Below are positions 1,986-33,908 of a DNA stretch of 33,908 nucleotides, one piece after another (within the stretch, counting starts at the first letter, position 1; the number at the start of each line of letters is the position of its first letter). Source of the DNA: a virus; the IMG/VR virus record IMGVR_UViG_3300030116_004105, positions 62,074 through 95,981 of that record. One strand, written 5' to 3'. The translations under genes and the position numbers were made by a program. A model generated the notes under the pieces. It was given only the letters and a program-made list of their open reading frames with translations. It searched no databases and had not been told where the DNA came from.

Positions 1986-2121
1986 TGTCTATAATTATAT
2001 AAATTTGTATTAATCCTAAAAATAATTGCACTTCATAATACGGTGCATACTCTTCTGGTTGGAAATGTCTTACGCCAACTATTAATCCTTTTGACCATCC
2101 TATACCGAATTCAAACTTCAT
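1957..2121 (-). CDS. 54-residue ORF coupled to the giant gene by TAATG
   Basis: The stop of the 4898-residue gene and the start of this ORF share a base (TAATG), a classic coupling arrangement repeated elsewhere in this operon. The product starts MKFEFGIGWSKGLIVGVRHF, continues with an acidic PEEYAPYYE segment, a hydrophobic stretch LFLGLIQIYIII, and an Asn/Thr-rich tail, ending at TGA 1957-1959. Without it the 135 bases between the neighbouring genes would be unexplained. The pattern FGxGWxxG...YxEVQLFLGLIQ resembles small uncharacterised phage proteins I have seen, but I know no function. The 3' end overlaps the start of the 148-residue gene, suggesting a second coupled re-initiation. Moderate confidence because the gene is short. 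Confidence 0.7.
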   Translation of the reverse strand: MKFEFGIGWSKGLIVGVRHFQPEEYAPYYEVQLFLGLIQIYIIIDNGNTNNNIN

Positions 2122-8100: not shown

Positions 8101-11100
8101 GCATTTGTAGTATAAGACTTACCTCTGTAAGAAGATATATTAGTTAGTTTTAAATTTTTATTTTCTACACCACCTTTAAAGAATATAAATGGTATTGGCT
8201 CTTGAGTTCTACTAGATACATTTATTGTTATGTTTTTACCTTGTAGTGCGGCGTGCATAACAGCAGCTAGAGATGCAGGCCCAATAAGTTGCTTACCTGT
8301 TCTTTGGCTGATTGTGTTATCTATATTTGTAGTTACAAAAGATGGGTCATTTATTTCTGACTCTTTACCTAGTATACCATCTACTACATCTGCAGCTTGT
8401 TTAAGATCGTTGTTATCTAATTTACTTGTTGCTTTTCTTGTAGTTTCGTCAAATATTATCTTTTTAAATAACTCATAGTACTCATCCTGCAGCTTTTGTA
8501 GTTCAGATAAATCAGACTTTATTTTGACTGTACCATCTTTATTTACCTCAAACTGCTTGAAGTATGTGTATGCTGTATCCCAGTCAAAGTCACTACCCAT
8601 CTGGTCTATAACTTGATCAGGCACAATTACACTAGATGTAGAAGTTTTAGGTAAAAATCCTACAATCTCTACAGGAACTACTGATGGTTTACCTTGTCCA
8701 GGTATACGATAGAGTATTCTTTCTCTAAGCTCTTGTGGCAGTATATCTGTACGTAGGTATCTTATTCCATTTGTTATTGTTGTATATTTTTTAGAACTAA
8801 GATCAACACTTTTACCGTTTGAATCTGTGAATACCGGGCTAATAAATATTTGTGCAGGTAATACTTTACCATCTTTACCTTTTCTTACTCCCTGTAAACC
8901 TACAGACTCATCAAATGCATTTTCTGTTTCTATAAGTGTAATTCCATTTTTAATTTTATCAAGCTCTCCACTAGATACAAACTGATCCCATCCAAATCCA
9001 CCTCTAGCTTCAAAGCCTGCAGACGACGCTTGTACAAGTGACTCTCCAGGTATTTTAATTTTTATTATTGCTTTATTAACTAGAGATAGTACTAAAGAAT
9101 CTATATTTTTTCTAGCATGGTTAAATATAAGTGGTGATTTAAATACACGTTCTACTGCACCTGATACATCTTTTAGTGCTAACTCTGATATATCTTTATC
9201 AGTCCACTTACGTGCTATTGCTTCTTCTTTAAGCATCTTAGCTAGTGTGGTAGGATTAGGTACGTATGCGCTACCATCAGGACTTACTTTTATACCTAAC
9301 TTATCAAACAATCCTTTTGCACCAAGTTGCATAAACTTTTTATGTAACTCTTCTTTTTGGTCTCGTAGATCACTGTATGATTCTCCAGTTGTAGATAAAG
9401 TTTTACCTAGCATATCATCAAATGCTAAAACATCTAATTGAGAAGAATATGCATTCTCACCAGTATCAGTTCCTTTTTCTTGCTGTATACCTAAACCAGA
9501 TCTACTAATGGACCGTCTTCCTCTTTCCATCTCTGCTGTTACTTCAGGTAAAGATCTTACTTTACCGTTTGCATCATAGATATTAATTGGATTTACTGCT
9601 CCTGTTTTATCAGAGGTCATATGTCCTAACCTATCTATACCAGTATTCTCCATTGCTACACGGATGTTATCTAATCCGTATCCTGTAGTTTCTTCAGGCC
9701 ATAGGTATCTAATATGTGACTTTCTAAATAGTTTATTGTTACTATCTTGATCTACTCTTATATCGTTTTGTACAAATACAGGCTTATCTGCCATCATTAT
9801 TTTTTTGTACTTGTTTATCTCTTCTTTAGTTAGTGCTTCATTAAGTTTAAAAAAGTTTCTTACATTGTCTGGGTCATTCTTAGCTGCATTGTAAGCAGAT
9901 AATATTTTATCACTTATGTCTTTTGGTAGTTTACCTGCAGATAGTTTAGATTCTACCATCTCAGCTATTGTACCATACTCTTGAGCATCTGTTCTTTCAA
10001 TACCATCTTTAACTGCGTCGTTTGCTGTAGCTATTGTTACACTTGGCATTGTGTATTGTGGCGTAGATGCAGGAGATATTAGATCTGCTTTACGTTTTTC
10101 ATAGTTGTTAAGCGTTTCTTTTATATCATCTTTTAATGTAGCCCCAGGTTTCTTACTTCTTTTAAAAGCATGCGCGGGATCATTACCAAATAATTTTACT
10201 ACTTCATTATTAGATACTATATAGTTTAGGTTATAGTCAGCAATAGCTCCTGCTAATTTATCTGCTTTCGTTTTATAGAATGCAGATTGTTTTCCAAACT
10301 TCTTATTTATGTATCGTTTATCCAGGAATTTTTCTTCTATACCAAGCTCTTGTAATCTATCTATATGTGAGTTGATTTGGTTTATCACATTCTGTTTTAC
10401 CGTAGCACGTATAAACTCTATAGGGTCTTGTGCATCAAACACGTTCTCCTGATTAGGGTCATATGCATTTAGATAATTGAACATGTAGAAGTATTTTGCA
10501 CCCTCTTCATAAGGCCCTCTATTAACTCCTTCTATCTCTTTATAATTTTCAATTCTATTATACTCATCTATAGCGTAGTTATATATCTGTTCTAGGGCAG
10601 GATCTAGTATATCAGTTACCTTTCCATTCTCAGTTCTTATATTTTCTACTGTGTTTGTTAACCTAGGAGCTTTTATTATTGGTGCTATATCTTTATCCGC
10701 CGTAGTTATAGGGAAGAAGTATGCATCTTTATTTCCTTGATTAGCAAAAGCATTGAACAAAGTTATCTCTTGTAAAAATTTACCTTGTTCTTTTCTATTT
10801 GTAGCGTTTGCATTAAATATAGTTGAGTCAAACATAAGAAGCTCCAAGTACTTATCATCGTTTTGTAGGCCTTGTCCCCATACAGAGTTTTTATTGTAGC
10901 TTAGCGATAATAGATCATTTAGAAGATTCTTATCTTGTATATAATCAGCTAAAGTTCTACTCATACCAAAATGATTCTGGAATGGGTATATAAGATTACC
11001 TTTTGCATCTCTAAAACTATCTCCGTATAAAGCGCCTCCAAAGTCTACAGTAAGTTTTAATAATCCATAAGCAGCTCTTTCACGATTAGGGCCGTCGTAT

Positions 11101-14100
11101 GGATTAGTTACATGTATAAACCCACCTCTTTTTTCTGCCTCTAGAAGAGTATTGTATGCTTCTTCGTTTTCTTTTGTTTCCTCTATGCTTTGTTTATCTG
11201 TAGATATTTTTAACAGCTGTTGTTCTGCTAGTCCTCCATTTCTTAATCTAAATGAATTGAATAAGAAAGACATCATACCTTGTCCTACTCCCCCGCTTGT
11301 AAGTTCAGGGTTAACATGTGTCTCCCATTTAGATTTTCTACCTAAGTAAGCAGATCTATCTTTAGCGTTTGCTTTTTTACTAGCTAAAAATCTAAGTCCT
11401 TCTACAGGTACATCCATACCCATATCCCCTAAGTATTTTTTAACTACATCTACAAACTCATTGCTTCTTAGCTGGTTAGCTTGTTGGTATTTTTTATACT
11501 CTTTTAAATAATTGTTATATAACTTCTCTCTTTCTTTTTGATTTATTATTGTTTCTGGTATACCATCTAGAGTTATAGTTTTTACTAGCTTTGAGCTTTG
11601 TAGATTTCTAAACCACTTATTCTTTATATTAATAGTGGTGTTATATCTATCTACTAGTTGCATTTCTACATTACGTCCTAACTGTTGAGGATTTACTTTT
11701 AAATGTACAAAGTCAAGTCTTGTACCTGACATTGCCACTACAAACTGTCGACGTAATGTTTCTGATCCTCTGTCTAGCTCTTCTGCTATTTTTCCAAATA
11801 TAGGATTACTAGACTCCTCTTCTCTTGCTAATAATGCAGCTCTCTGATCTTTAAATGTACCAGGCACAGCACTTAGTGTAGCTTTTATTGTATCATAACT
11901 TTCTTGATACGGTATTGCTTTTCTAAAGTTTTTACCTAACCACGTTGTTTCGTTTTTAGTTGCTCTAGATAGTAATAGTTTTATACTAGAAGATGCTGTC
12001 CTTTTCTTATTTGTTTTATAGAACTCAAAATCATAAATATCTTTTACAAAGTCTTCCTGGGTAAAACCATCAACTTCTAAAGACTCTGCAAATATTTGAT
12101 CTATTTCTGCATCGGTAAGATCCTTTGATCTAAACCCTTGTTTTTGTGGTAGTATATCTAACTTTGCTAATGATTCTAACATTATACCTTCCACGGTAAC
12201 CTTACCAGACTTAGCGTCGTAGTTATCTACTAAATGTTTTAGAGCTTTCTTTCTTCTAGTATTTATTTTTATACCATCTGCTTCTTTATTTAGCTCATTT
12301 TTTATAAACTGAGATATTTGTTTAAAGTTAGCTTTGGTAATATTTTGTGAGTATTGTGCAAATATAGAACCTATGGCTTCTAACTGCATCGGTAGACTAA
12401 TTATCTTAGTATCAAAGAATCTTTCTCCTAACTCTTCACGCATAGCCCGCGCAATGGCATCATCTTTATAACCATCTAGTTGGTTTTCATTAGCCTGAGT
12501 TGATTCGTATATAGGTGATGCAAAAGATAATCCTTCTGCAGCCTGGTTTGCATTCTCACTTTCGTTTACTACTGCTCCCTGTTCTGCAAATGATGTATCT
12601 ACAATTACTAATGGCTGAGTCATGTATGTATACTCTGTCTCGCCTGCACTATTAATTAATGTATTCTTACCGTTTATATCAGTTTTTAAGAACTGTCCTT
12701 TAAATGCATTGTATGATGAGTGTGTACTTACATCTTCTACAACACCTTCTAAGTTCAGAATCACATCCTTAAACTCTTCTTTTTTATTTATGTTTTGTTT
12801 TTGTACACTAACAAGTTTTCCTTGTAGTAATTGAGCTGCTTCTTTTGCAGCGCCTTCTTCTCTAATATCTTTTATCTCTCGTATGTCATTATCTGTTACG
12901 AAAGAAGGATTGTTTTTAAAGAACAAAGGATCGTTTGTGTACATTACTCTTTGGTCTACATTTATTATCTGTAGCATTCCTTGTACCTGGCCATCTTCTG
13001 AAGCAGCCAGTTCCGGTGTATGTACTAATACAGCGCCTTGCTCAAAGTTATCTTCAACTTCTTTATTCCAGCTGTAGAATGTCTTTCTAGCAAATGTGTA
13101 TCTATTTACAAACTTATGTAGTCCTGCTGAATCTCCTTGTCTACCAAACTGTATTCCTGTTTGTTCTGTTATAGTATCAAACGTTTCTGTCTGGTTGTTC
13201 TGGAATGATGTTGCAGCACCTATTATAGTGTTTGCTTGATCTGCAGTTACATTATCCACAAATAATATTGTAGGGAATATCTTACCATTTGGTGTTGGTA
13301 AGTTAGCAACTACTCTACCATTAGTGTAGTTAGCATCTTTAAGATCTATTACAGTCTCTTCTTTTAGGGCAAACTCTCCTATGAATATTTCACCACCATC
13401 TACAATACCTAGTTTTATATTATCTACATCCGGTAATGCTTGGTCTATAGGTTTATTTATTTTTTGTAGTTTATTACCCACTAGTAATAAGTTACCTGCA
13501 CTGTCTTCTTGATATAAAGGTAAAACCTTACCATGGCCCTTGAATACTACAGTTGTTTTAACTTCATTATTTTGGTCAATGCTTCTAGCTAATGCTCTAC
13601 GTATGTTTCTAGCATTCTGTAGCTCTTCTTCTAGTCTACCAGGGGCCGTGTTTATCAGTCTTCCATTACTATCTCTAGCTTCTATCCAATCTGTAGTGTG
13701 TAGTGATGCTGATTTTATACCGTCTTGGTATACAGCTACAGCTAGATTATCTACGTCTTCATTAGGCATAGATATTAACTCTTCTTTTGTTAGAGCTACA
13801 TTATCACTATTAACTAGTCTTAGTACAACTTCACTATTAGGCATCATTGCTTTACTAGATTCTATAAGTTTAGATTCTTCAGTCTTAGTGTTAGATGTAC
13901 TTACTTTTTCTTTTACACCCTCTATTTCTATTTCTCTGTATTGCACAGATAAGAATGCAAGAGAAGAGGATGAGTTTGTTTGTCTTCCTGTTAGTGTTTG
14001 ATCATCAATCTCAAAGTATGGATTAAATGATTTAGGAGCTACTCTACTATTTTCTAAGTTTGTATCTCCAGTAGATTCTATGTCTTCTCCACCATTGTTT

Positions 14101-16817
14101 ACTTCTCCATCAAATACTGGAGATGAAAAGCTTGTAGATGTAACATTAACCTTATTTGGGCTGACAGATTGTTTTTCACGTAGAAGGGTAGAACGTTGTT
14201 TGTCATCTACTAAAGATCTTATTTCTCCTTTAGGGTCTACATATAACTCTTCCTCTTTTAGAAATTTTCGAGCTGCGAGTTCAATTTTCTCTGCTGTATT
14301 TTCAGTTGTTAAATTATAAATTGCTTTTATTATATCATTGAAAAACATTTTTTTAGCAGGATATGGACCTAAATCTCCTATTAGAGCTGATGTAGAACCC
14401 AAAAACTCTTTTTCTACGGTAGCTAATGTGCCAATTTGTTTAGCAATAAACTCAAAGTTACCTGGTTTAGCGGCGCCCATAGCATCACGATTAATTAACT
14501 TAGGTAATTTACCTTTTAGGTAATCCTCTATTTCAGTTGTAGGCATTATCTGATTTGTACTGGCAGATTCTTTTTTACCTATAGGTGATGTAGCAGTAAG
14601 TGGTGCTCCACCGGCCGCTTGTTGTGCTGTAGTTGCCTGTGTAGTTTGTGCAGGCTGACTATTTCTAGCTTTCTTTTTTGCAGCTTGTGTTTGTTGTTTT
14701 TTCTGAGCTTGTTGTTTAGCTTTCTTAGACGCTGCTCTCTTTGCTTGTTCTGCTTTCTCTTGAGCAATTGTTTGTTCAGCTTCTTGTTTCAATAACTCAG
14801 GATTACTTACTAGCTCTTGGTATCTAAGTGCATTGTTTTTACGACGTATTCTACCAGCTTCTAATAGACTTTCAGTTAGTTCTATCTTTGCATCTATATC
14901 ACCGGCGCTTTCTAGCTTAGATACTCTATCAAGAGTTTCATCTACAGTAATCTCATTAGCTGAAGCATAGTCTTTTACTTTTAACTCTAGAGTTTCTTCT
15001 CTTTGTTTTAGTCTTGTTTTTGCATCCTCTAAGTTTTTTACTTCTCCTGCTAACGTTTCATTAGTTTCTCTTGTTAGAGGTTTAGCTTGACTTCTAAGTT
15101 CTTGTATACTATTCTCAAAACCTTGCACAGTTCTTTGTAAAGCAGCTCTCTTGAATATATTATTACGTATCTCATGCAGATCTTTATCTTCTACATTGTT
15201 TTCAATATCTTCAAACAGCTTTTGTTTCTGTGCTTCTAGATCTGTAAGATTAGATTTATATTTTTCTATATCTTTTAGAGCATAGTATTCATTTAACTTA
15301 TTATTTACTAGTACAAATGCTTCCGCTTGACTACCTCTAAGCGGGTTAAGAAGTTCGTTATTTATAACGTCTTCTATATACTTTGCATCTGCTATGTATT
15401 CATCAGCTAGTTCTTTATAGTTAGATTCAAAACCTAGATTCTTTGCTTCTTCTTCTGTAGCATTTCTATAGGTTTCTAATACGTCCATAAAGTTTTGGGA
15501 TGTACCTTTTAGAGCATTCATTACTGCGTGCTCTCTAACTTGTTTTTTAGTTAGATCTTTTATTCTTTCTCCTGAAGCCCCTAAAGCTAACTCTGATTGC
15601 TTAACTTGTTCTAATGCATCTATATTATCTTTTTTACCAAATATAGACACACCTGTACCTACTACACCACCACCTAAAGCTCCTAAAAGCCCTTCAGTTA
15701 TACCTTGGTAACTTGTTGCATGCTCTACAAACTTTTCAAATCCTGGTCTATTATCAGGTACAACTTTACCAAGCTCTAGATCTGTTTTGTATTGAGCTTC
15801 TGTCTCTTGATACCCGGTGGTTACTTCTTCTAACCCTTCTGTAGTGGCTTCTATACCCAGCCTTTTTAGGCCGTCAAACATTCCTTGATTCTTTGTAGCC
15901 TCTTTTAACTTACCTAGTCTTCTAGTATGAGATACCCCTCTAAATAAATTAGCTTGTGATATAGATTGCCATAGTATATTTACTCTACCGCCTTGTATAA
16001 TCTCAGCTGCTTGTTTAGATAGTGTTCTTCTAGCTTCTTCTGCTGCCTGTCCAGGCTCTAATCCATTTGCAATGTATTTATTAGTAAGATCTTCTAGGTT
16101 TTCTTCTATATGTCTAGCTGCAGATACTGCATGCTCTCCATAGTTTAGTAGTGTTGCTGATCCTAAAGCGCTACCTGCATTCAAAGCAGATGCAGCGGCT
16201 GAACCAGATATAGATTTACCTGTTAAGTTTGCAGCTGTACCAAAGATAGCTTTACCTGCAATATTAGCGCCTTTAAATAAAGCACCTGCAGGTAAGAAAT
16301 ATCCAATAGATCTTAGAACTTGATCTGTATTTTGAAACCACCAATCTGAAGAACCTATAGTTGGTTCTTGTCCGGCTGTATATATAGGAAAGTCTTCTCT
16401 TACAGATTCTTCTAATCCTCGTAACCCTTTTGTAAGAAAGTTATCATAGTCTCTGTCTGCACCTTGTAGTGCTGCTATGTGGTTTTCTACATCTAATAAA
16501 TATGCAAAAGGTTCTACAGCAGCTACAGCTGCTCCTACAGTGCCTCTAACTAAAACATTACCTATCTTATTTAATGTCCCTTGAGCTTCGGACATCTCTT
16601 TCATTATGTTCATGCCTGGAATATATCTTACTCCTAGGCTTTGCTGCTCTTCTACTTCCTCTGAAGATAACAGACCTACATACCCTTCGGGTAAACTAGG
16701 TTGATCTAATTTTATTTCTGGTAGATTTAAGTTTAATGGTGGTAATTCAAATAGACTATCGTATTGAGATGCAGCTACTGACTTTCGCTTTTTATCTCCG
16801 TTAGTGTGTTGAGACAT
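2121..16817 (-). CDS. Giant virion protein with RNA polymerase and zincin motifs (crAss-like vRNAP)
   Basis: A 4898-residue protein, probably packed in the virion and ejected to transcribe early phage genes. From the N-terminus: Gly/Ala-rich hydrophobic segments (about 88-110, 169-226 and 373-393) that could interact with membranes; coiled-coil regions (about 400-680); a Lys/Gln/Ala/Thr-rich linker (675-751); and a polymerase core. The core has RIPGQG (from residue 2704) followed 39 residues later by GSDFDWD, matching the spacing and form of the beta' 'R-P..NADFDGD' double-psi-barrel motif and of crAss-like polymerases such as phi14:2 gp66. A conserved-looking AVDNANEAVLG block follows near 2925. 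A zinc-protease motif HEMLH is at 3606-3610. The C-terminal 700 residues contain a QFRTWAFEG block (about 4690) and a hydrophobic segment (about 4772-4793), like phage polyvalent proteins. No cysteine was found by eye. The polymerase call is from motifs; start and frame are clear. Confidence 0.85.
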   Translation of the reverse strand: MSQHTNGDKKRKSVAASQYDSLFELPPLNLNLPEIKLDQPSLPEGYVGLLSSEEVEEQQSLGVRYIPGMNIMKEMSEAQGTLNKIGNVLVRGTVGAAVAAVEPFAYLLDVENHIAALQGADRDYDNFLTKGLRGLEESVREDFPIYTAGQEPTIGSSDWWFQNTDQVLRSIGYFLPAGALFKGANIAGKAIFGTAANLTGKSISGSAAASALNAGSALGSATLLNYGEHAVSAARHIEENLEDLTNKYIANGLEPGQAAEEARRTLSKQAAEIIQGGRVNILWQSISQANLFRGVSHTRRLGKLKEATKNQGMFDGLKRLGIEATTEGLEEVTTGYQETEAQYKTDLELGKVVPDNRPGFEKFVEHATSYQGITEGLLGALGGGVVGTGVSIFGKKDNIDALEQVKQSELALGASGERIKDLTKKQVREHAVMNALKGTSQNFMDVLETYRNATEEEAKNLGFESNYKELADEYIADAKYIEDVINNELLNPLRGSQAEAFVLVNNKLNEYYALKDIEKYKSNLTDLEAQKQKLFEDIENNVEDKDLHEIRNNIFKRAALQRTVQGFENSIQELRSQAKPLTRETNETLAGEVKNLEDAKTRLKQREETLELKVKDYASANEITVDETLDRVSKLESAGDIDAKIELTESLLEAGRIRRKNNALRYQELVSNPELLKQEAEQTIAQEKAEQAKRAASKKAKQQAQKKQQTQAAKKKARNSQPAQTTQATTAQQAAGGAPLTATSPIGKKESASTNQIMPTTEIEDYLKGKLPKLINRDAMGAAKPGNFEFIAKQIGTLATVEKEFLGSTSALIGDLGPYPAKKMFFNDIIKAIYNLTTENTAEKIELAARKFLKEEELYVDPKGEIRSLVDDKQRSTLLREKQSVSPNKVNVTSTSFSSPVFDGEVNNGGEDIESTGDTNLENSRVAPKSFNPYFEIDDQTLTGRQTNSSSSLAFLSVQYREIEIEGVKEKVSTSNTKTEESKLIESSKAMMPNSEVVLRLVNSDNVALTKEELISMPNEDVDNLAVAVYQDGIKSASLHTTDWIEARDSNGRLINTAPGRLEEELQNARNIRRALARSIDQNNEVKTTVVFKGHGKVLPLYQEDSAGNLLLVGNKLQKINKPIDQALPDVDNIKLGIVDGGEIFIGEFALKEETVIDLKDANYTNGRVVANLPTPNGKIFPTILFVDNVTADQANTIIGAATSFQNNQTETFDTITEQTGIQFGRQGDSAGLHKFVNRYTFARKTFYSWNKEVEDNFEQGAVLVHTPELAASEDGQVQGMLQIINVDQRVMYTNDPLFFKNNPSFVTDNDIREIKDIREEGAAKEAAQLLQGKLVSVQKQNINKKEEFKDVILNLEGVVEDVSTHSSYNAFKGQFLKTDINGKNTLINSAGETEYTYMTQPLVIVDTSFAEQGAVVNESENANQAAEGLSFASPIYESTQANENQLDGYKDDAIARAMREELGERFFDTKIISLPMQLEAIGSIFAQYSQNITKANFKQISQFIKNELNKEADGIKINTRRKKALKHLVDNYDAKSGKVTVEGIMLESLAKLDILPQKQGFRSKDLTDAEIDQIFAESLEVDGFTQEDFVKDIYDFEFYKTNKKRTASSSIKLLLSRATKNETTWLGKNFRKAIPYQESYDTIKATLSAVPGTFKDQRAALLAREEESSNPIFGKIAEELDRGSETLRRQFVVAMSGTRLDFVHLKVNPQQLGRNVEMQLVDRYNTTINIKNKWFRNLQSSKLVKTITLDGIPETIINQKEREKLYNNYLKEYKKYQQANQLRSNEFVDVVKKYLGDMGMDVPVEGLRFLASKKANAKDRSAYLGRKSKWETHVNPELTSGGVGQGMMSFLFNSFRLRNGGLAEQQLLKISTDKQSIEETKENEEAYNTLLEAEKRGGFIHVTNPYDGPNRERAAYGLLKLTVDFGGALYGDSFRDAKGNLIYPFQNHFGMSRTLADYIQDKNLLNDLLSLSYNKNSVWGQGLQNDDKYLELLMFDSTIFNANATNRKEQGKFLQEITLFNAFANQGNKDAYFFPITTADKDIAPIIKAPRLTNTVENIRTENGKVTDILDPALEQIYNYAIDEYNRIENYKEIEGVNRGPYEEGAKYFYMFNYLNAYDPNQENVFDAQDPIEFIRATVKQNVINQINSHIDRLQELGIEEKFLDKRYINKKFGKQSAFYKTKADKLAGAIADYNLNYIVSNNEVVKLFGNDPAHAFKRSKKPGATLKDDIKETLNNYEKRKADLISPASTPQYTMPSVTIATANDAVKDGIERTDAQEYGTIAEMVESKLSAGKLPKDISDKILSAYNAAKNDPDNVRNFFKLNEALTKEEINKYKKIMMADKPVFVQNDIRVDQDSNNKLFRKSHIRYLWPEETTGYGLDNIRVAMENTGIDRLGHMTSDKTGAVNPINIYDANGKVRSLPEVTAEMERGRRSISRSGLGIQQEKGTDTGENAYSSQLDVLAFDDMLGKTLSTTGESYSDLRDQKEELHKKFMQLGAKGLFDKLGIKVSPDGSAYVPNPTTLAKMLKEEAIARKWTDKDISELALKDVSGAVERVFKSPLIFNHARKNIDSLVLSLVNKAIIKIKIPGESLVQASSAGFEARGGFGWDQFVSSGELDKIKNGITLIETENAFDESVGLQGVRKGKDGKVLPAQIFISPVFTDSNGKSVDLSSKKYTTITNGIRYLRTDILPQELRERILYRIPGQGKPSVVPVEIVGFLPKTSTSSVIVPDQVIDQMGSDFDWDTAYTYFKQFEVNKDGTVKIKSDLSELQKLQDEYYELFKKIIFDETTRKATSKLDNNDLKQAADVVDGILGKESEINDPSFVTTNIDNTISQRTGKQLIGPASLAAVMHAALQGKNITINVSSRTQEPIPFIFFKGGVENKNLKLTNISSYRGKSYTTNALTDAIRSASDNIRSVQNAAVDNANEAVLGRAGINNATIDVALFTLMYKDQASADSIHGEQLVYFLRQEAIEEYTKQVDYYSAQIEGGFRTEEQIRNDAFNASMIILAQKAGLDPEADYTANLDQYRSTTDGEFMTFSSQEFLDQLRTRNKPNPSYYKTQMAILAGFKQLQNSSDPVRKLQRGIVSPRTKGIGSTIFEAQKRIDNMEAVFEKQLSTIGGVENLADGQLEEMYKQFAKVYTSLSEILPFSNRSHQRMINLWQQFTGNENVSQKLREDLFNSLLNKSFVRAFEKTFNEDATAARYRLLSDPDENIAARIEKVQESDFGRRNLFISRLLLNKPNKGVPASITYVNSKQDDIADQMAVDFVSLYESAEVGHRELFEDIVKYTYLTGGVQSSTNFSKFMNTAYLDQIGFYDALREEQKNLNSPTSPESINILELMVEYLQHNPNRAVALSRKELQDISVSPMRTIQFDGKTINYEFELPQPDNSNKFNRIVYQRDDGNLLYIEVIAAERPTGLELFQKIGVNKDGNVVFRRIGKKGYQTAGQGYSKVSEYSGVTKFLKDGRMITEESILPQNNIPKAVKTNVGVPQVSTTKAPTDISVYGLDPISMKYATPGRAGVKELLSAVMQDTQSKSLSRLATMLSKNIDTKGSAIKEILIEDGLVDRDGNSAYGLYRDGAVVINRETITRYPEKLQETILHEMLHGFLSSEVADSSSEFSRKVSYLTNAANSAFKAAVKKGEIEEGTVQYKTLQYAFSNPQEFVTNTMTQKEVQSFLNTVPGKKNLFERFKQLIKDFLKVLGVDLGVAVNKDSLLAESVDSIMSFIVEAPARKQATKTAQKAEQEAGVFPLNPYISEPRHVLASYTRMKNGEYTQEEFDKALQDYRDSQLFSLNYMAANKNKTGRVIDEVLAVYQERADKLKGKLTDKVIKTAAGKKMQERLNVYRDQISTLKSKKTYGNLDSIMSLQLGWANGIANSKNPTEVEIKEALNIVDMYDYTKVTSKYLDKTERKVGDRFNELLKSQSSLASNIKVNLLDKLIDMTVEVINQELPETEAVTAEQLKNIEGETYRKSRFLDLSKFSHPVVRMLDKYLKAANRNADTDIQSRFLEIESAMADIQNSAAFKKDPNLFFQKDDKGKLTGYFISPYSSAYNQARGKILGKYRAKMAKATRDSAKNIATVQLMRDLDSIEFAIDIRWFIDEEASFNSPFKSKQEYMEYLDQQIGDTARRDALIKEALQKYKKYKAAEDQRMMEIELEESNNAGNIEEFRATINSRQLRYKERYSPLYHLNSRYGGGKKLARNEGYKALVNVPLNKPKYYDSRYTAIQKDPQLKKFYDFYTSTMKDLITLLPEGLVATLPENFFPFAKRGFVEQIQNEGTSAIFSAMKGSKIADYLWNLDQDVTLNPQVATKGVRNPDTGEIEKNIPVRMLRGKADEKSYDIEKVMKMFAAMSVSYDYKSQVEDKILLLQRVIREAKEIQLDSTGSPMMRKISRALKLDSKVGGLKNTQEAVQYAIDSNLYGVSKDTVERGIVLSQKVAEVKQEFEQLQADYKTNKIDDSVYAEEKAKLDERLKELNKKPISYRKPLERLVEYTQLKGLGWNLMSGVNNLSFGTIANFVHAAGNEDYSTEQLTKAYALMFKEYVPGTANKAEKLAEKYGILFEQLDTYYGKTKKTRYKYMSKLNPFFLQTSTEYMNQIAPMVAKMLNTKIDDKGNTLWDIYDNEGSIKEEFKSLESDWTMKVDAETQNKFTEFRDATIEMNKVNHGNYDPNSALLIKKSVWGRIGTQFRTWAFEGLNTRWGGKVYNAQLGRYTEGRYMSFGKVGLKGSLEMFGKSILNTLTLGYGVSEESMRGDIKDDLTFANMRKNMAGLKFYLAVMAAGNLLRALGADEDDKETEKVYRLLQNTFYRLEQDGEFYARPSTAMEVLRNPAPVLKTVKDFSNAATATYDYIDDKEGYEESRRDPLNKKWMKVVPFGNSIRSIDYLMETQIEKD
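5985..6002 (-). other. Zincin motif HEMLHG (residues 3606-3611)
   Basis: The segment ETILHEMLHGFLSS forms the typical helix of an HExxH zinc metallopeptidase: His3606 and His3610 as zinc ligands, Glu3607 as general base. It follows a beta-rich stretch (GAVVINRET) as in zincin folds. A third zinc ligand cannot be assigned by eye; FSNPQEFVTN downstream (Glu in a helix) is a candidate for a gluzincin/MPTase-like third ligand. Confidence 0.7.
8577..8591 (-). other. Polymerase catalytic motif DFDWD (residues 2743-2747)
   Basis: Codes for Asp2743-Phe-Asp2745-Trp-Asp2747 inside GSDFDWDTAYTY. In multisubunit RNA polymerase beta' and in QDE-1-like and crAss-like single-chain polymerases, the three Asp of DxDxD bind the catalytic Mg. 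All three are kept. The fourth position is Trp instead of the Gly of cellular enzymes or the small aliphatic residue I recall for crAss-like proteins. Confidence 0.8.
14565..14795 (-). other. Low-complexity Lys/Gln/Ala/Thr linker in the giant protein (residues 675-751)
   Basis: Residues 675-751 begin as a charged coiled coil (EQAKRAASKKAKQQAQ), turn into a basic AKKKA run and then a neutral TTQATTAQQAAGGAP stretch. This looks like a disordered hinge between the N-terminal membrane-like/coiled-coil part and the polymerase-bearing part, and is a plausible place for proteolytic processing (inference). Confidence 0.6.
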
Positions 16818-28326: not shown

Positions 28327-28791
28327 TTACATAAAATAATCTAGTTCTCTATTTTTATCTTTTAATATACCTGCTAGAGTTCTTGTATTTGTTCTTGTTG
28401 GAATAAAAGAGTATGCTGTTATATTTTTAACTATACCTTTTGTCCAATAGAATCTATACTTATATCCACCAGTATGATCATTTAGATGATAAATTCTTTT
28501 ACCTAGTTTTCGACTAGCTGCCCAATCAATCTTAAGTTTATTTTTATCATCATATTTCATTTTAGACTTTTTTATTCTTATTGTTCCTAGTCTATAAGGA
28601 AGTCTCATTTCTTCTGAGTTTACTAATATTTCATCAATAAATAATTTATTAAACTCATCACATATTTTTCTAAACTTTTGTTTATCAACCTGTAATTCAG
28701 GTATTACACTATTCTTATAATGTGTGTATACATCATTAGATCCAAAATCTTTTTTATAGTTACCTTCCCCTCTTTTTGAATTTTCAAACAT
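28327..28791 (-). CDS. Conserved structural-cluster protein, crAss-like phage family
   Basis: A 154-residue basic, soluble protein. The blocks MRLPYRLGTIRIKK, LKIDWAASRKLGKRIYHLND and GGYKYRFYWTKG, then SFIPTRTNTRTLA, follow a pattern (LP.GLGTL.I.K; DW.ATRKLGKKVYH.ND HT.GYKYR..W; F.PTR.N.R.LA) that I recall as conserved in crAss-like phages next to the connector genes. Its function is not known to me; a role in the head-tail connector or a tail accessory is inferred from its place directly after the 231-residue protein, with which it is coupled by TAATG. No signal peptide or membrane segment; one cysteine. Confidence 0.65.
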   Translation of the reverse strand: MFENSKRGEGNYKKDFGSNDVYTHYKNSVIPELQVDKQKFRKICDEFNKLFIDEILVNSEEMRLPYRLGTIRIKKSKMKYDDKNKLKIDWAASRKLGKRIYHLNDHTGGYKYRFYWTKGIVKNITAYSFIPTRTNTRTLAGILKDKNRELDYFM

Positions 28792-29486
28792 TATTTTTGA
28801 GTATTAGGTTGAAAGTCAGACTTAGCATTATTAGAACTATCTGTTAGAGTTTCTATAAAAGGCTTCATGTTTTGAGTTAACATACTAGTTTTTATTAAAT
28901 CTAACATAGACGTAGATAAAGGATAATCATGATTATCTGGATCATAAGAAGGATTACCATTTACATCCATAAAGTTTGATATTTCTCTTGGATTTTGAAA
29001 CACTCCCTCTGCTTTTATTTTATCTAAGTACTTAGCCTCTGGACCAGTTACATAAATAAAATTATCTAACAAGAATGCAAAAGTCATACGCTTTGTATAC
29101 TTATTAGTTCCTATCCAAGGAGCTCTATTATAAGGTACCATATGAAAGTTAACAGATAAAATTCCTGTAGGCCCTATAGCTGTTATAAGATCTGAGTGCG
29201 ATGTTTCTATTGGATTAGGTATTTGTTGCTTAGATCTCATTATTTTTAAATCAGCAGGTAGCCCACATGTTGATCCAGAAACAGCTTCCACATCTAAACA
29301 GTGTATAACCTGTTTAATATTATCTGAAATACTTCTTCGTTTATTTATATCTTGTCGTATAAACTGAGCTCTTAAGCTGTTTATTTGAAATTCTATTTGA
29401 CGATCAGATATAATTTCATCGTCTGATTGCATACCACCTCTAATAAGGTTTTTAATATCGTATACTATTTCTTTTATTGTTGCCAT
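28791..29486 (-). CDS. Connector / ring protein candidate
   Basis: A 231-residue soluble protein. The N-terminal 60 residues are helical (IKEIVYDIKNLIRGG, DRQIEFQINSLRAQFIRQD), followed by a beta-rich middle with PADLKIMRSK and segments about IGPTG and NRAPWIGTNKYTKRM. The helical N-terminal bundle plus beta core is the usual make-up of head-tail connector or tail-ring proteins (P22 gp4/T7 gp11-like). A protein of this kind stands next to the small 'KYRFYW' protein in crAss-like genomes, as I recall. The role is inferred from context and pattern. It overlaps the next gene as TAATG and starts 1 base after the preceding phosphoesterase stop region. Confidence 0.6.
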   Translation of the reverse strand: MATIKEIVYDIKNLIRGGMQSDDEIISDRQIEFQINSLRAQFIRQDINKRRSISDNIKQVIHCLDVEAVSGSTCGLPADLKIMRSKQQIPNPIETSHSDLITAIGPTGILSVNFHMVPYNRAPWIGTNKYTKRMTFAFLLDNFIYVTGPEAKYLDKIKAEGVFQNPREISNFMDVNGNPSYDPDNHDYPLSTSMLDLIKTSMLTQNMKPFIETLTDSSNNAKSDFQPNTQK

Positions 29487-30650
29487 TTATTTTAAATTAA
29501 CTTGTAAATATCCTTCACATCCTTTTTCTCTGTTCCATATATAAGCCTGCGCTTCTCTTTTACTATGATACCCCATCATTTTATGCCAGGCATCATGTGT
29601 TGCAATACTTGGAAGGAATCTAACTTTTACTCCTTGGTAGGTATTGACAATTTCTCTGTGCTGATGTCCGCAGTGCACTTCTCTGTGCTCACACTCTGCA
29701 AACATTGCTGGCCTTTCGGTTGCCATGAGAAGGGGCATGTCTGCCGGCTTCTCTTTATCCCCATGTGTAAACATAAGCATATTGTTTCCGTATTTGTAAT
29801 ACTTTCTTGACTCATAACTATTATATACTGTCACTGGTTTATAATTTCTATACCAAGCTTCTATTACTTCTCCTATATAAAACATACGTTCAAAGTCATG
29901 GTTACCTTGCACCACTATAACATCTACAGGTGCAAATGCAGATAGATAATCTATTGCTGTAACTAGTAACTTCCAGTAACCTCTAAAGGTTTGTTGCCAT
30001 TCTTCAGCATCATGCTGTGGTGTACCTTTAGTGGTAGCTCTACTATATCCTTCAGAGTTAAGACCATCGTTACCAATAGGTAGTATAAATCTTTCTATGT
30101 TTAATCCTTTGGCTTTTCTATGTAACTCTTTTACAGTGTTCATAAAATCCAAATTATTATCCTCTTGAGATATAGCCCCTATCTTACCGTAATGAAAATC
30201 AGGTAAAGATATTTCGTAGGCTACAGGAGATCCCTCTGTAAGGTTGTAGTTAGGAACTGCAACCTCTGGGATATACTGTTTCATTTCTTCAAAGAACTCT
30301 TTTTTAAACTGCTTAAGATCAAATCCATTTTCTTTTGTTACTACAGAAAACCTATATTCTCCATTAGCAGCTTGCCAGTGTTTGACTGACTTAACATCTT
30401 GTTTTTTTATTCCCCTCTCTTTTAGATGTAAATCCAGTTCGGGTATATATAAAGGATCTATATCCCCTATATTTTTTGTTTCGTTTACATTATCATTACT
30501 ATCCTTCCATCCGTATCCTCCTGCGTATTTTCTGACTCCTCTAACAACCTTTGCTATATTGCTTTGGTCTATACCTAATGCACCACTTGCTTCATAGATA
30601 CTAGAGAATTCATCAATAACGTTTCCTTCTCTGTCTAACTGTTGTATCAT
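29487..30650 (-). CDS. NUMOD1 - metallophosphoesterase fusion protein
   Basis: A 387-residue protein with two modules. Residues 1-50 match a NUMOD1 DNA-binding element (DREGNVIDEFSS, EASGALGIDQSNIAKVVRG, AGGYGWK), usually found in homing endonucleases and other mobile-element proteins. Residues 145-387 carry all motifs of a calcineurin-like metallophosphoesterase: DFH (Asp151, His153), GND (193-195), GNHD (249-252), HGD (296-298) and GHQH (328-331). These bind two metal ions and hydrolyse phosphodi- or monoesters; the substrate is not evident. The DNA-binding domain suggests action on DNA (inference). It lies between the holin and the connector gene and overlaps the holin stop by ATGA. An intact motif set suggests an active enzyme. 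Confidence 0.9.
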   Translation of the reverse strand: MIQQLDREGNVIDEFSSIYEASGALGIDQSNIAKVVRGVRKYAGGYGWKDSNDNVNETKNIGDIDPLYIPELDLHLKERGIKKQDVKSVKHWQAANGEYRFSVVTKENGFDLKQFKKEFFEEMKQYIPEVAVPNYNLTEGSPVAYEISLPDFHYGKIGAISQEDNNLDFMNTVKELHRKAKGLNIERFILPIGNDGLNSEGYSRATTKGTPQHDAEEWQQTFRGYWKLLVTAIDYLSAFAPVDVIVVQGNHDFERMFYIGEVIEAWYRNYKPVTVYNSYESRKYYKYGNNMLMFTHGDKEKPADMPLLMATERPAMFAECEHREVHCGHQHREIVNTYQGVKVRFLPSIATHDAWHKMMGYHSKREAQAYIWNREKGCEGYLQVNLK

Positions 30651-31033
30651 TGTTTTTTAATTTTTTCTATACTTCTTCCAGCAAAATAAGCACCGTACAC
30701 GGTGATTAATAGTGTCTGGTAGATAGGAATATAAGCCGGAGCTATTTCAAATCCTCCTGCATTCCCATCAAATATAGAAATAATTACAAACATTGCTGTT
30801 AAAAATATACATATCAGCGGTCTAATGTTTTTACTTAGCCAGTTATCGGACTTCATATCAGCCTCCCAACGTCTAGTAACTTGTTCTTGTGCTTGAGCTT
30901 CAGCTTGCATAAGAACTTCTTCCATAGCCTGTTTAGCAGCTAATCTTTCTTCTTCAGTAGTAGTTAGATTATCTATTACTCCTCCTACTTTTTCTATAAC
31001 GTTTCCGCCTAAAAATTTTAATAATTTACTCAT
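30647..31033 (-). CDS. Holin, GTA/3TM-like
   Basis: A 128-residue membrane protein next to the M15 peptidase. The N-terminus is amphipathic (KFLGGNVIEKVGGVIDNL), followed by a charged helix rich in Glu/Gln/Ala (30-60), then WLSKNIRP and two transmembrane segments (about 72-88 and 102-118), and a basic end (GRSIEKIKKQ). The WLSKNIRPLICI pattern with flanking helix is typical of the phage 'Holin_3TM' type, which forms the inner-membrane lesion that releases endolysin. Start overlaps the peptidase stop as TAATG, and the stop overlaps the phosphoesterase start. Lysis pairing strengthens the call. Confidence 0.8.
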   Translation of the reverse strand: MSKLLKFLGGNVIEKVGGVIDNLTTTEEERLAAKQAMEEVLMQAEAQAQEQVTRRWEADMKSDNWLSKNIRPLICIFLTAMFVIISIFDGNAGGFEIAPAYIPIYQTLLITVYGAYFAGRSIEKIKKQ

Positions 31034-31503
31034 TAAAGTGCTTTTATATTATCACTGGCATGTCTATAAGCTGTTTTACCTTGATCGTTTTTATAAGCTT
31101 CTAGTACTTGCTTTCTATTTTTGCTTGAACTAAATGATATATGTATCCATGCAAAATCAAACTCGTTTATCATTTGATCAAATTCTAAACCTGAGTCTAG
31201 CACCCAATCATAGATAACTTTATTATTCATTTCTCCATCTTTCCAAAACTGCAGATCCAGTGCTTCACCTTTACAGTGTTGCGAGCGGCTACTTCCCCCG
31301 ATAGCACGATTAAGTTTCGGGCTGCGATAACCACTGCTAATACGGATAGGACCGATAGCATCGCGCATAGGCTGAACAAGCTCTGTAATGATAGTCTGCA
31401 GATTAGCCAGGTGTTCTTTATCTGGTTCATTACTTATTCCTTTTCTTCTTGCTGTATTACTTCGAGTAATCTCTGACAATACAAAATTCTTACTTAGTCT
31501 CAT
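31033..31503 (-). CDS. M15-family peptidase, probable endolysin
   Basis: A 156-residue peptidase_M15_3-type D-Ala-D-Ala carboxypeptidase-like protein that would cleave peptidoglycan peptides. Visible motifs: SSGYRSPKLN (Arg60), SQHCKGEALDL (His76 and Asp83 as zinc ligands, H-x6-D) and AWIHISF (His121, third ligand), with Glu114 or Asp116 as the likely catalytic acid. It has the size of a complete single-domain enzyme and no signal peptide, so release needs a holin; the holin gene follows by TAATG. Together they form the lysis cassette. Confidence 0.92.
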   Translation of the reverse strand: MRLSKNFVLSEITRSNTARRKGISNEPDKEHLANLQTIITELVQPMRDAIGPIRISSGYRSPKLNRAIGGSSRSQHCKGEALDLQFWKDGEMNNKVIYDWVLDSGLEFDQMINEFDFAWIHISFSSSKNRKQVLEAYKNDQGKTAYRHASDNIKAL

Positions 31504-31512
31504 AATTTATAT

Positions 31513-31848
31513 TTAAAATGCTTCCATTACAATTTCGTCTATAGACTCTTGCACTTCTTTTCTAGTGGCTTCCATAGTCATCATAATATTTGCTTGAAAT
31601 CTTTTTACTTCTTCGTTATTATTAAATATCACAATAGTGGGAACTACCACTATTTTATATTCTTTAGACCACCTAGAGTCAGATGTTATATCTACTCGTT
31701 CTGTTTCACAGTCTGATAACTTTGGTAACCATTCTACCTGGTTAGCTGCATTAAAACTAGCATTAAACTCAACAGCAACCATTCCATCAGGAAAGTCTTG
31801 AGCCATAGCGCCAGTGTAAATACAAAATAAAACAAATAGTTTTTTCAT
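31513..31848 (-). CDS. Exported thioredoxin-fold protein without CxxC
   Basis: A 111-residue protein. A signal peptide (MKKLFVLFCIYTGAMAQ, cleavage before Q17 or D18) sends it to the periplasm. The mature part has the thioredoxin order: strand VAVEFNASF, a helix, strand TERVDIT, and VVVPTIVIF with the cis-Pro (Pro70). The place of the WCxxC redox centre is occupied by SFNAANQ, so no catalytic cysteine pair exists; the only mature cysteine (Cys47) lies elsewhere. A binding or chaperone-like role rather than a redox role is likely (inference). It lies between the small membrane protein and the endolysin gene, with 6-10 base gaps. Confidence 0.75.
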   Translation of the reverse strand: MKKLFVLFCIYTGAMAQDFPDGMVAVEFNASFNAANQVEWLPKLSDCETERVDITSDSRWSKEYKIVVVPTIVIFNNNEEVKRFQANIMMTMEATRKEVQESIDEIVMEAF

Positions 31849-31854
31849 AAGATA

Positions 31855-32139
31855 TTATTTTAAGTCATCTATCTTTTCCTCAAGACGTAGCATATGCCCT
31901 TTAATTTCTTTTACATCGTCTTGAGTTGTCATAATAGTTTGACGAATTAATTGATCCTTCATATCATACTCCATGCGAGTAATCTCAGGATCTGGTGGCT
32001 TAGGTAATTCCTTTGCCTCTGATATATCTGATTGTAGTGTAAACCACATACCTACAAGAGTGAAGATTAACACTGCTATACCTGCTAATGTTTTTATACT
32101 CAGTTTTAGAGTTGTGTCTTCATTTATTTCTTTTGCCAT
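31855..32139 (-). CDS. Small single-TM protein with coiled-coil tail
   Basis: A 94-residue protein with a short charged N-terminus, one membrane segment (about 16-35, SIKTLAGIAVLIFTLVGMWF), a Pro/Asp-rich spacer (PKPPDPEITR) and a C-terminal amphipathic coiled coil (about 58-94, KEIKGHMLRLEEKIDDLK). The topology N-in with a periplasmic coiled coil resembles inner-membrane spanins or small lysis-regulating proteins, but I see no clear homology. It lies two genes before the endolysin, so a lysis accessory role is possible (inference). Confidence 0.65.
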   Translation of the reverse strand: MAKEINEDTTLKLSIKTLAGIAVLIFTLVGMWFTLQSDISEAKELPKPPDPEITRMEYDMKDQLIRQTIMTTQDDVKEIKGHMLRLEEKIDDLK

Positions 32140-32141
32140 CT

Positions 32142-33179
32142 TTAAAATATTACATAGTTAAGGCCAACGCTAAAGTTGTGCCATTGTCTGTTCCAATACT
32201 TATTGTATCTACCTTCTATAAATACACCTAAGCTTTTATTAAATCTATATCCATATATAAGTCCTGCTGAATAATCTAACCATTGTTTACCCTTATAATT
32301 ATAATAAGAGTATTCGTTACCTGTGTCTATATGATAAGGCATAAGGTTACCCCAGCTATGAAACCAAAAGTCTTTTGTAAAGTGATAGTAATCAAATCCT
32401 AATACTGCAGAGTATTCAACTATATTAGAAAGTGCAGATCTTTGCGCTTCTACATAATCATCTATTACTTGTGGTATAACAACTTCTTCCCATACCTCTT
32501 GACTAGTTGCTACTACCTCTCCATTGGGTGCTGAATATTGTCCATCTAATGTTATAGTGTATCCCTCTTGAAGTGCCAAGTATGTATAGTGTAATGTCCC
32601 ATTGTCCAGCACCCAGTCTGCCAGGGGGTCAAATCCATATGGCTCTGCAAGTCGCTGTACTGCACCTACGTTTACAGATAGTTTACCTGCTTCACCTATT
32701 TGCAATCTAAATCTTTCTGATGCTTCAAAGTATTTTATGTCTGCAAAACCATCTTCAAGATACTCTATTTTACCTACCCAGCTATCTGCAACATATCTTA
32801 CAAAATGATGCTGGTTAGTAAAATTAACACCTAAACGGCGTACAAAATCAGCCTCGAATAAATACTCAAAGCCATCGACTCTACCAATTGTGGCAGCATC
32901 ACTGTATGAATTTTCTGTACCATTATAAAAAGTAAGAGCCCTGTTTTCATATCCAAATCGTTTTATTTTTCTTATACCTATAGATAATGTATAATCAAAA
33001 GGTGTTTCTATTGTTTGTTCTTCTAGTGTACCAGATGTAATAGACCATATCTGATCATCACCTAATGATGTACCACCATTAACTGCAGCATAAAATGTAG
33101 AGTATTTAAATATTTTATGTAAACCTTGTGCGTTTCCTAAAAAAGGAATAAATACTAATATTAATAATAATTTTTTCAT
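32142..33179 (-). CDS. Exported outer-membrane beta-barrel-like protein
   Basis: A 345-residue protein with a clear Bacteroidota signal peptide (MKKLLLILVFIPFLGNAQ). The mature part alternates hydrophobic and polar residues in likely beta strands with many Tyr/Trp/Phe (FYAAVNGGTSLG, FDYTLSIGIRKIKRFGYENR, FSVGLNYVIF) and ends in an aromatic residue, as outer-membrane barrel proteins do. A helical acidic insert lies near residues 230-265 (EVWEEVVIPQVIDDYVEAQ). No named family is recognised. It is ATGA-coupled to the T9SS-sorted protein upstream. A phage gene of this kind might alter the host surface, for instance to block further adsorption, but it could also be a virion or lysis part; these are inferences. 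Confidence 0.65.
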   Translation of the reverse strand: MKKLLLILVFIPFLGNAQGLHKIFKYSTFYAAVNGGTSLGDDQIWSITSGTLEEQTIETPFDYTLSIGIRKIKRFGYENRALTFYNGTENSYSDAATIGRVDGFEYLFEADFVRRLGVNFTNQHHFVRYVADSWVGKIEYLEDGFADIKYFEASERFRLQIGEAGKLSVNVGAVQRLAEPYGFDPLADWVLDNGTLHYTYLALQEGYTITLDGQYSAPNGEVVATSQEVWEEVVIPQVIDDYVEAQRSALSNIVEYSAVLGFDYYHFTKDFWFHSWGNLMPYHIDTGNEYSYYNYKGKQWLDYSAGLIYGYRFNKSLGVFIEGRYNKYWNRQWHNFSVGLNYVIF

Positions 33180-33908
33180 TTCTTTAATACTTTTCTAGTG
33201 CTAGTGTTACCATTATATGTTACGCTAAAATTATATATACCTGCTGGTAATAAACCTACATCTAATTGATTTAATCCTTTATGCGTTTGATTTTCTTTTA
33301 TTTTAATTACAAGTTTACCAGATACATCATAGACTCTTATACTTACAGGACCATTTGTTAATATGTTTAACATATCTCCCATAGGATTTGGATACATAAC
33401 TACATTATGCCCTCTAAGTAAATCTCTTGTATCTAATGGACTATCCCAAGAACAGCTCCAATATATCTGCTGACATTTATCATCCCATTCATTATTACAA
33501 CAATAAGGATCTATTAAAATAACCCAAGCATAGCACGTGTCATTCAACCAATAAGGAATACCAGGACCATCAATACAACCTGCATCGTATAAACAACTTC
33601 CATCATCTGTATTGTATATAGCATCATAATTGTATCCAAGCGGGTCCATACATCCTTCTAATACATCTATACATCCTCCATTGTCTGTGTTAGCTAATGA
33701 ATCGTAATTAAATGCTGTATCGTCAGTACATCCATAAACTACATCTACACATGAGAAATCTTCTGTATTTGCATCTGGACTGTAATTAAAAGCATTAGGG
33801 TCTGTGCATCCAGGTGTCACCGGAATACACGATCCATTATCGGTGTTAGCAACAGGGTCATAATTAAATGCAATAGTATCAGTACAACCAAATATAAAAG
33901 GTATACAG
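33176..33908 (-). CDS. T9SS-sorted GCTD-repeat protein, 5' end cut by window edge
   Basis: The frame is open to the right edge, so the N-terminus is missing; a GTG at 33820 is internal to a repeat and not a likely start. At least four 26-residue repeats of the form GCTD..AFNYD..ANTDNGSC are followed by a Cys-rich stretch (PYCCNNEWDDKC). The last 75 residues form a T9SS type A sorting domain: VVMYPNPMGDMLNI, VRVYDVSGKLV-like, LPAGIYNFSVTY and a basic end RKVLKK. In Bacteroidota this domain directs cargo through the outer membrane to the cell surface or medium. A phage gene carrying it suggests use of host T9SS in the infected cell (inference). Paired cysteines suggest disulfides in the exported state. 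The upstream half and any signal peptide lie outside the window. Confidence 0.8.
   Translation of the reverse strand, partial: CIPFIFGCTDTIAFNYDPVANTDNGSCIPVTPGCTDPNAFNYSPDANTEDFSCVDVVYGCTDDTAFNYDSLANTDNGGCIDVLEGCMDPLGYNYDAIYNTDDGSCLYDAGCIDGPGIPYWLNDTCYAWVILIDPYCCNNEWDDKCQQIYWSCSWDSPLDTRDLLRGHNVVMYPNPMGDMLNILTNGPVSIRVYDVSGKLVIKIKENQTHKGLNQLDVGLLPAGIYNFSVTYNGNTSTRKVLKK
33578..33889 (-). repeat. Four tandem 78-base (26-residue) GCTD repeats
   Basis: Units run 33889-33812, 33811-33734, 33733-33656 and 33655-33578, each exactly 26 codons and starting GCTD or GCMD with a second Cys at unit position 21. A further partial unit (ending C-I-P) continues to the window edge, so the full array is longer. 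Coding tandem repeat, not CRISPR. Confidence 0.85.

Follow-up and report, generated by a model that had tools for sequence, protein, structure and literature searches.

Gene Content and Organization of the Cassette

The window, that is, the whole stretch of 33,908 nucleotides analyzed here, is the right end (positions 62,074–95,981) of a 95,981-bp virus record. Its minus strand carries a cassette of four genes, here called A, B, C, and D, followed by an M15 endolysin and a 3TM holin (Table 1). A and B overlap in an ATGA, B and C are separated by 2 bases, and C and D by 6 bases. The original prediction had placed genes for a protein sorted by the type IX secretion system (T9SS), an outer-membrane-barrel-like protein, a single-TM coiled-coil protein and a redox-dead thioredoxin-fold protein just before endolysin and holin, and all of them were found in place with the claimed spacing. 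Two corrections to this first reading were required: the A gene of the window is truncated by the contig end, which leaves only its last 243 residues, and the entire cassette recurs at the left end of the contig, where A is complete (824 aa; L005:8015-10489).

Table 1. Features of the cassette and the adjoining lysis genes (positions in the window).
Feature	Description	Position	Strand	Basis
A	C-terminal 243 residues; predicted T9SS-type secreted Cys-rich repeat protein	33176..33907	-	Por_Secre_tail
A, sorting domain	residues 171-240; predicted type IX secretion	33188..33397	-	Pfam range
B	modeled outer-membrane beta-barrel; leader and C-terminal aromatic residue	32142..33179	-	model, VIA
C	94-aa predicted inner-membrane protein; N-terminal helix, proline-rich linker, C-terminal coiled coil	31855..32139	-	hydropathy, heptads, alignment conservation
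C, membrane helix	residues 17-35; predicted	32035..32091	-	Kyte-Doolittle
C, coiled coil	residues 62-94; predicted	31858..31956	-	heptad spacing, read by eye
D	exported thioredoxin fold without CxxC	31513..31848	-	profile match
Endolysin	peptidase M15_3	31033..31503	-	Pfam E 9.9e-18; PHROG 894 E 9.8e-35
Holin	three-helix type, GTA_holin_3TM	30647..31033	-	Pfam E 5e-8; PHROG 3427 E 3.5e-28

The two copies (L005:5417-10489 and window 30647-33908) were 92, 79, and 96% identical in B, C, and D, respectively. Their DNA was 87–90% identical across ~3.3 kb, and the tail genes beyond differed. The CrAss_Ring_2 gene was also present twice in this record, compared with once in six other records with CrAss_Ring_2. 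A true duplication is less likely than a chimera or an assembly that ran around a circular genome and on into another strain.

By its sequence, the window phage is crAss-like: CrAss_Ring_2 was matched at window 28791-29486 (E 7.3e-36), and the terminase of the record matched PHROG 6681. Elsewhere in the window, the largest open frame (2121-16817) encodes 4,898 aa, the segment 3-782 matched RIIB lysis-inhibitor families (PHROG 609, E 2.3e-40), and a metallophosphatase-like exonuclease with a NUMOD-type N-terminal domain was found at 29487-30650. The terminase frame of the window phage (G000:C1:40843-42930) contained one in-frame TGA, and that of a related record (L023) contained one TAG and two TAA. 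Sequence error, decay, or stop-codon recoding is possible in both frames.

Features of the Four Proteins

The window A matched Por_Secre_tail with an E-value of 1.6e-12 (48 bits; cut-off, 27), which assigns it by sequence to the T9SS cargo kind with a type A sorting domain. The structural model of A from a relative (L011) was weak overall (mean pLDDT 66.7, pTM 0.31). The best PDB match of its last domain was 8glk_D (TM 0.78 by target length, 2.1 Å), the C-terminal domain of the T9SS substrate NucA solved in the T9SS translocon. Both results upheld the prediction of a T9SS-sorted protein. Complete A versions were mostly 650–1,400 aa long and rich in Cys repeats, and an N-terminal export leader was recognized in them by eye; the truncated window copy does not extend that far. 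Export presumably proceeds via the host type IX system, and from the T9SS domain we infer that the host phylum is Bacteroidota. The Cys-rich repeat of A recurred in proteins encoded close to tail genes, as well as in a virion protein of a Synechococcus phage. One protein (L011:685-5802; 1,705 aa, 108 Cys) contained the repeats of A without its sorting tail, and a tail-side use of the repeat is possible.

The AlphaFold2 model of B (m667f1493d91a; pLDDT 75.7) was a barrel of ~14 strands, in which residues 75-100 scored <50 and are unreliable. In the VIA structure comparison, it matched OmpG (Z 11.7) and TamA (Z 11.4). As modeled, B is a closed outer-membrane beta-barrel, in line with the barrel-like protein predicted. 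Its closest match among predicted viral proteins was A0A516LKJ4 (E 4.7e-24). No Pfam family was found for the window B at E ≤1, and a PDB sequence search with the B profile returned chance matches only. An assignment of B to PorP/SprF or PorV was unsupported, given the lack of a Pfam match at this threshold and the many generic barrels listed by VIA. In the structure matches, a chain of the T9SS complex (8gl6_F, E 7.6e-3) came up only as one of many generic barrels, and B may still belong to a family that VIA does not list. The loops of B were conserved about equally to its strands (0.42–0.96). Some B proteins (L149:12047-13096 and L160:6923-7984) started with a lipobox-like leader, so the barrel may be lipid-anchored in these two loci.

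Protein C showed a single hydrophobic window (Kyte-Doolittle >1.6) starting at residue 17. Heptad spacing was followed by eye through I65, I69, T72, V76, I79, M83, L86, I90, and L93, and a C-terminal coiled coil is predicted there. This pattern, with T72 included among the heptad positions from 65 to 93, agrees with the description of C as a single-TM coiled-coil protein. This layout was conserved in the alignment of homologues, and the charge of the protein suggested its orientation in the membrane. The predicted coil spans only ~33 residues, which is short for bridging the periplasm alone. A PDB sequence search with the C profile gave no match.

The D profile matched thioredoxin structures with a best E-value of 6.1e-8. 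Outside the leader, no CxxC was found in any D sequence, whether among the 40 aligned or the 107 distinct ones, which agrees with the exported, redox-dead thioredoxin fold proposed for D. The D versions of two loci (L132 and L336) scored above the Pfam thioredoxin cut-off (PF00085), and the thioredoxin stretch (EFWAEWN and EFYVEWN) was still recognizable where the Cys pair has been lost. D thus resembles the thioredoxin family in its profile matches and differs from it in being exported and in lacking CxxC. For these two reasons, D is neither a catalytic thioredoxin nor a disulfide enzyme of that type. A match to a DNA-binding family (PHROG 4745, E 0.0016) was weak, and it was contradicted by the leader and the thioredoxin matches.

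Conservation and Distribution of the Gene Set

The IMG/VR scan with B confirmed 118 stretches, of which the best 80 were used. When C, D, and divergent B served as queries, at least 572, at least 569, at least 547, and at least 573 stretches were confirmed, and the best 80 of each were used; the sample therefore leans to the near relatives of the query. Of the 396 related loci, 200 were excluded for lying too close to the end of a contig and a further 36 as identical copies. The remaining 160 loci were non-identical with 5 kb present on both sides.

B, C, and D occurred together in 159 of the 160 loci, and the genes lay on one strand in all 160. Long A was present in 123 loci, a short exported stand-in was found in 27, and neither was recognized in 10. 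The gene orders were ABCD (61 loci), BCDA (45), BCD (35), CDAB (16), CDB (2), and CDA (1). By scan, with 5 kb on both sides, all four genes were found in 44/44, 38/40 (two without A), 42/42, and 27/28 (one without B) loci; in the fifth scan, all four were found in 3/44, and B, C, and D alone in 41/44. The co-occurrence of the set is beyond chance and no accident. The four genes are thus a real conserved set as had been predicted, and the independent occurrence in relatives that would have spoken against it was not seen for B, C, and D. Neither a fixed four-gene block nor a single gene order was upheld: long A was missing in 37/160 loci, and ABCD, BCDA, and CDAB were all in use. The short stand-ins were Cys-bearing with T9SS-like tails by eye, and no Pfam sorting-domain match was found in them. 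An exported 100-aa DUF2279/VanZ-like protein (L064:10313-10615) was present in 17 loci, in many of them inserted between C and D.

A divergent copy (G402:C16) was located on a 56-kb phage-like contig, where terminase, portal, and capsid were assigned by size and order alone. It had the order endolysin-B-C-D with overlaps of 4, 1, and 4 bases. Identity to the window proteins was 32% for B, 44% for C, and 35% for D. No A was found within 4 kb around it. This copy, together with the loci in which A was missing or replaced, suggested that B-C-D is the core and A an exchangeable extra.

Among 36 carrier records searched, the PHROG 6681 terminase was matched strongly in 20 and weakly in 6, and CrAss_Ring_2 was found in 7. 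A contractile sheath was detected in five virus records and two MAG assemblies, in the latter possibly on another contig. Present in both crAss-like and contractile-tailed phages, the set is not confined to one virion type. The carriers comprise many uncultured viruses of bacteria, probably of Bacteroidota. The titles of the carrier MAGs presumably point to sea water.

A tblastn search of 50,697 phage records, from which near records may be missing, found no match to the window B and C, to the divergent B fragment, or to the B and C of G402; D matched ordinary thioredoxins only, and A matched repeats only. The set is nevertheless common in nature, as each IMG/VR scan with C, D, or divergent B confirmed at least 547 relatives. 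Two peptide patterns searched against 84,980 species genomes detected B in six contigs, all from MAG or uncultured assemblies, none of which was recognized as an isolate prophage. In 395 genomes of one order (that of G032), B was found in two and C in three. The two B-bearing genomes held a MAG phage-like contig (L091) and the divergent copy G402:C16. A cellular origin of B was considered, and no bacterial parent family was found in these 395 genomes. Searches of open-access PubMed Central found no paper on this gene set.

Inheritance of the Alleles

In a first Mantel-like comparison, in which differing loci were used for differing gene pairs, the correlations among A–D were 0.48–0.78, and those of A, C, and D with terminase and portal were about zero. 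Restricted to the 32 loci in which all seven families were present, the comparison gave lower correlations among A–D (0.12–0.44), and B correlated with terminase at 0.72. After thinning to 18 loci, most correlations among A, C, and D were near zero. Block inheritance of A–D was consequently withdrawn: A, C, and D each shuffle their alleles separately, and B follows the terminase. Since the co-occurrence stands while the alleles shuffle, the parts need to occur together without particular versions having to match. A similar pattern, in which gene variants shuffle independently, has been described for Cryophage (PMC7468147).

Association with Lysis Genes

A lysis model (endolysin or holin) was matched within 5 kb of the cassette in 107 of the 160 loci, and none was recognized in the other 53. 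As background, 7–37% of positions lay within 5 kb of a lysis match in eight fully read contigs, in all of which the cassette did so. The comparison of 107/160 with 7–37% is not a clean test, as the lysis models were built partly from cassette neighbors, which biases it toward linkage. In a set of 82 loci, 61 carried an endolysin of the M15 family and 57 a member of the holin family. The endolysin varied in type (M15, phrog_33083-like, DUF5675, and PG_binding with Amidase_2) while B-C-D remained constant; DUF5675 was counted as a lysis gene by assumption. A membrane protein of 70–73 aa (L132:5923-6135 and L071:11378-11599) was found near the cassette in many loci (35/44 in the first scan), and it is possibly a second holin or an antiholin.

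One of the nearest known comparisons is with two-component and unimolecular spanins (lambda Rz/Rz1 and T1 gp11), and the cassette may work like a spanin. It adjoins the endolysin and holin, and C is predicted to have a single N-terminal membrane helix and a coiled coil, which would resemble an i-spanin. However, the outer-membrane part of the cassette is a beta-barrel rather than a lipoprotein, there are extra parts (D and usually A), and no sequence relation between spanins and the cassette proteins was found. A crude lipobox scan found no spanin-fit lipoprotein in the window phage and no lipobox in B, C, D, or the seen part of A; the contig held one spurious lipobox ORF away from the lysis genes. 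No unimolecular spanin (a lipobox plus a C-terminal membrane helix) was found in the contig by a scan that does find T1 gp11. In control runs, lambda Bor and T1 gp11 were detected and the embedded lambda Rz1 was missed. The cassette was therefore not filed as a spanin, because the defining outer lipoprotein was searched for and not found.

The absence of spanins is not proof of a replacement, since the scan misses embedded o-spanins and Cellulophaga phage phi14:2, which had no match to B or C, was likewise without a lipobox match. The lack is thus not peculiar to cassette carriers. Nor is it general among them, as lipoprotein candidates were found in two carriers (53 and 193 aa in G021, 285 aa in G025). 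In a spanin survey, an outer-membrane protein was proposed as a possible o-spanin, and Croceibacter and Bacteroides phages were among those without a detectable spanin (PMC6139136). Among Bacteroidetes phages, a later survey lists only unimolecular spanins (PMC12596118).

Possible Functions of the Cassette

Among the roles originally proposed, outer-membrane disruption is favored by the location near lysis genes, and surface remodeling or superinfection exclusion would fit the exported A and the surface barrel as well. This latter role is the main rival, and we consider it somewhat unlikely. Surface A and barrel B would mask or replace receptors, with C and D assembling or anchoring them. The T9SS sorting domain of A argues for it, as do the outer-membrane proteins and exclusion lipoproteins annotated among the late genes of other phages (lambda lom and bor, T1 Cor). 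For Cryophage, superinfection exclusion has likewise been suggested as the role of a phage-borne T9SS cargo (PMC7468147). That cargo and the gut phage BACON proteins (PMC6949934) are, like A, phage proteins with a T9SS sorting domain and presumed host export; they are described on their own, whereas A is accompanied by the barrel B, the membrane coil C, and the redox-dead thioredoxin fold D in a conserved set. The outer-membrane morons (lambda Lom and Bor; the T1 outer-membrane protein and Cor) are also envelope proteins of the late region; B, by contrast, belongs to no Pfam or PHROG family and is accompanied by C and D in all loci examined but one. Against this rival, the loops of B, conserved about as well as its strands, are unlike an arms-race surface. 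The two peptide patterns detected B in only six contigs of the 84,980 species genomes and recognized it in no isolate prophage; many loci also lack A or carry a substitute, and one endolysin-coupled copy has no A.

A role of B, C, and D as helpers of A is unlikely. They would aid Cys-rich A-type cargo in folding, T9SS exit, or surface retention, and the role of the cargo itself (adhesion, aggregation, or nutrient or metal binding) would be separate. Long A or a short exported stand-in was present in 150/160 loci, the stand-ins share the Cys and the T9SS-like tails read by eye, and D places a thioredoxin fold beside Cys-rich cargo. Against this, A was not recognized in 10/160 loci, endolysin-B-C-D occurred without A within 4 kb, and the stand-ins had no Pfam sorting-domain match. 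It is very unlikely that the four proteins are structural parts of the virion or their helpers: the cassette is flanked by tail or fibre genes on one side and lysis genes on the other, and the A repeat recurs near tail genes and in the Synechococcus phage virion protein, but A, B, and D bear export leaders, and the set is common to contractile-sheath phages and to crAss-like phages without a sheath. Barely credible is an accidental adjacency of independent genes. The variable order and the individual shuffling of A, C, and D would suit it, yet B, C, and D were together in 159/160 loci, on one strand in 160/160 and across phage types, and for these three genes it is largely refuted.

We put first a trans-envelope complex that is coupled to lysis, with B-C-D as the core and A as a swappable part, which would do a spanin-like job with unrelated parts. 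This reading is quite possible, and it was placed first for the constancy of B-C-D against a changing endolysin, the tight coupling to the endolysin, the predicted layout of C, and the lack of any lipoprotein spanin in the lipobox scan of the window phage. The presence of B, C, and D together in 159/160 loci, the lysis matches within 5 kb in 107/160, and the proposal of an outer-membrane protein as o-spanin (PMC6139136) also speak for it. The core would be made late in infection. C would be anchored in the inner membrane and extend its coiled coil into the periplasm, B would lie in the outer membrane, and D, having lost its redox pair, would serve as a binding fold and periplasmic adaptor between them. 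After cleavage of the cell wall by the endolysin, a C-D-B bridge spanning the periplasm would tear the outer membrane or cause it to fuse, as spanins do elsewhere. A, the exchangeable or dispensable partner, would be exported to the surface via the host type IX system and load or weaken it from outside. Against this lysis-coupled complex stand the 53/160 loci without a recognized lysis gene nearby and the loose correlations among A–D (0.12–0.44); moreover, it is not obvious what a long exported A would contribute to membrane tearing, and the coil of C is short.

A wider proposal, which we regard as doubtful, is that B-C-D, usually with T9SS-exported A, would be a new class of phage trans-envelope machine, spread through unrelated Bacteroidota phages, that replaces spanins and breaks the outer membrane from inside and outside. 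How Bacteroidota phages open the outer membrane is poorly known, and the set gives three or four genes to test. The cassette may point to an unrecognized route by which viruses break through the outer membrane of bacteria; if surface remodeling were true instead, it would be a shared phage tool controlling which others may infect.
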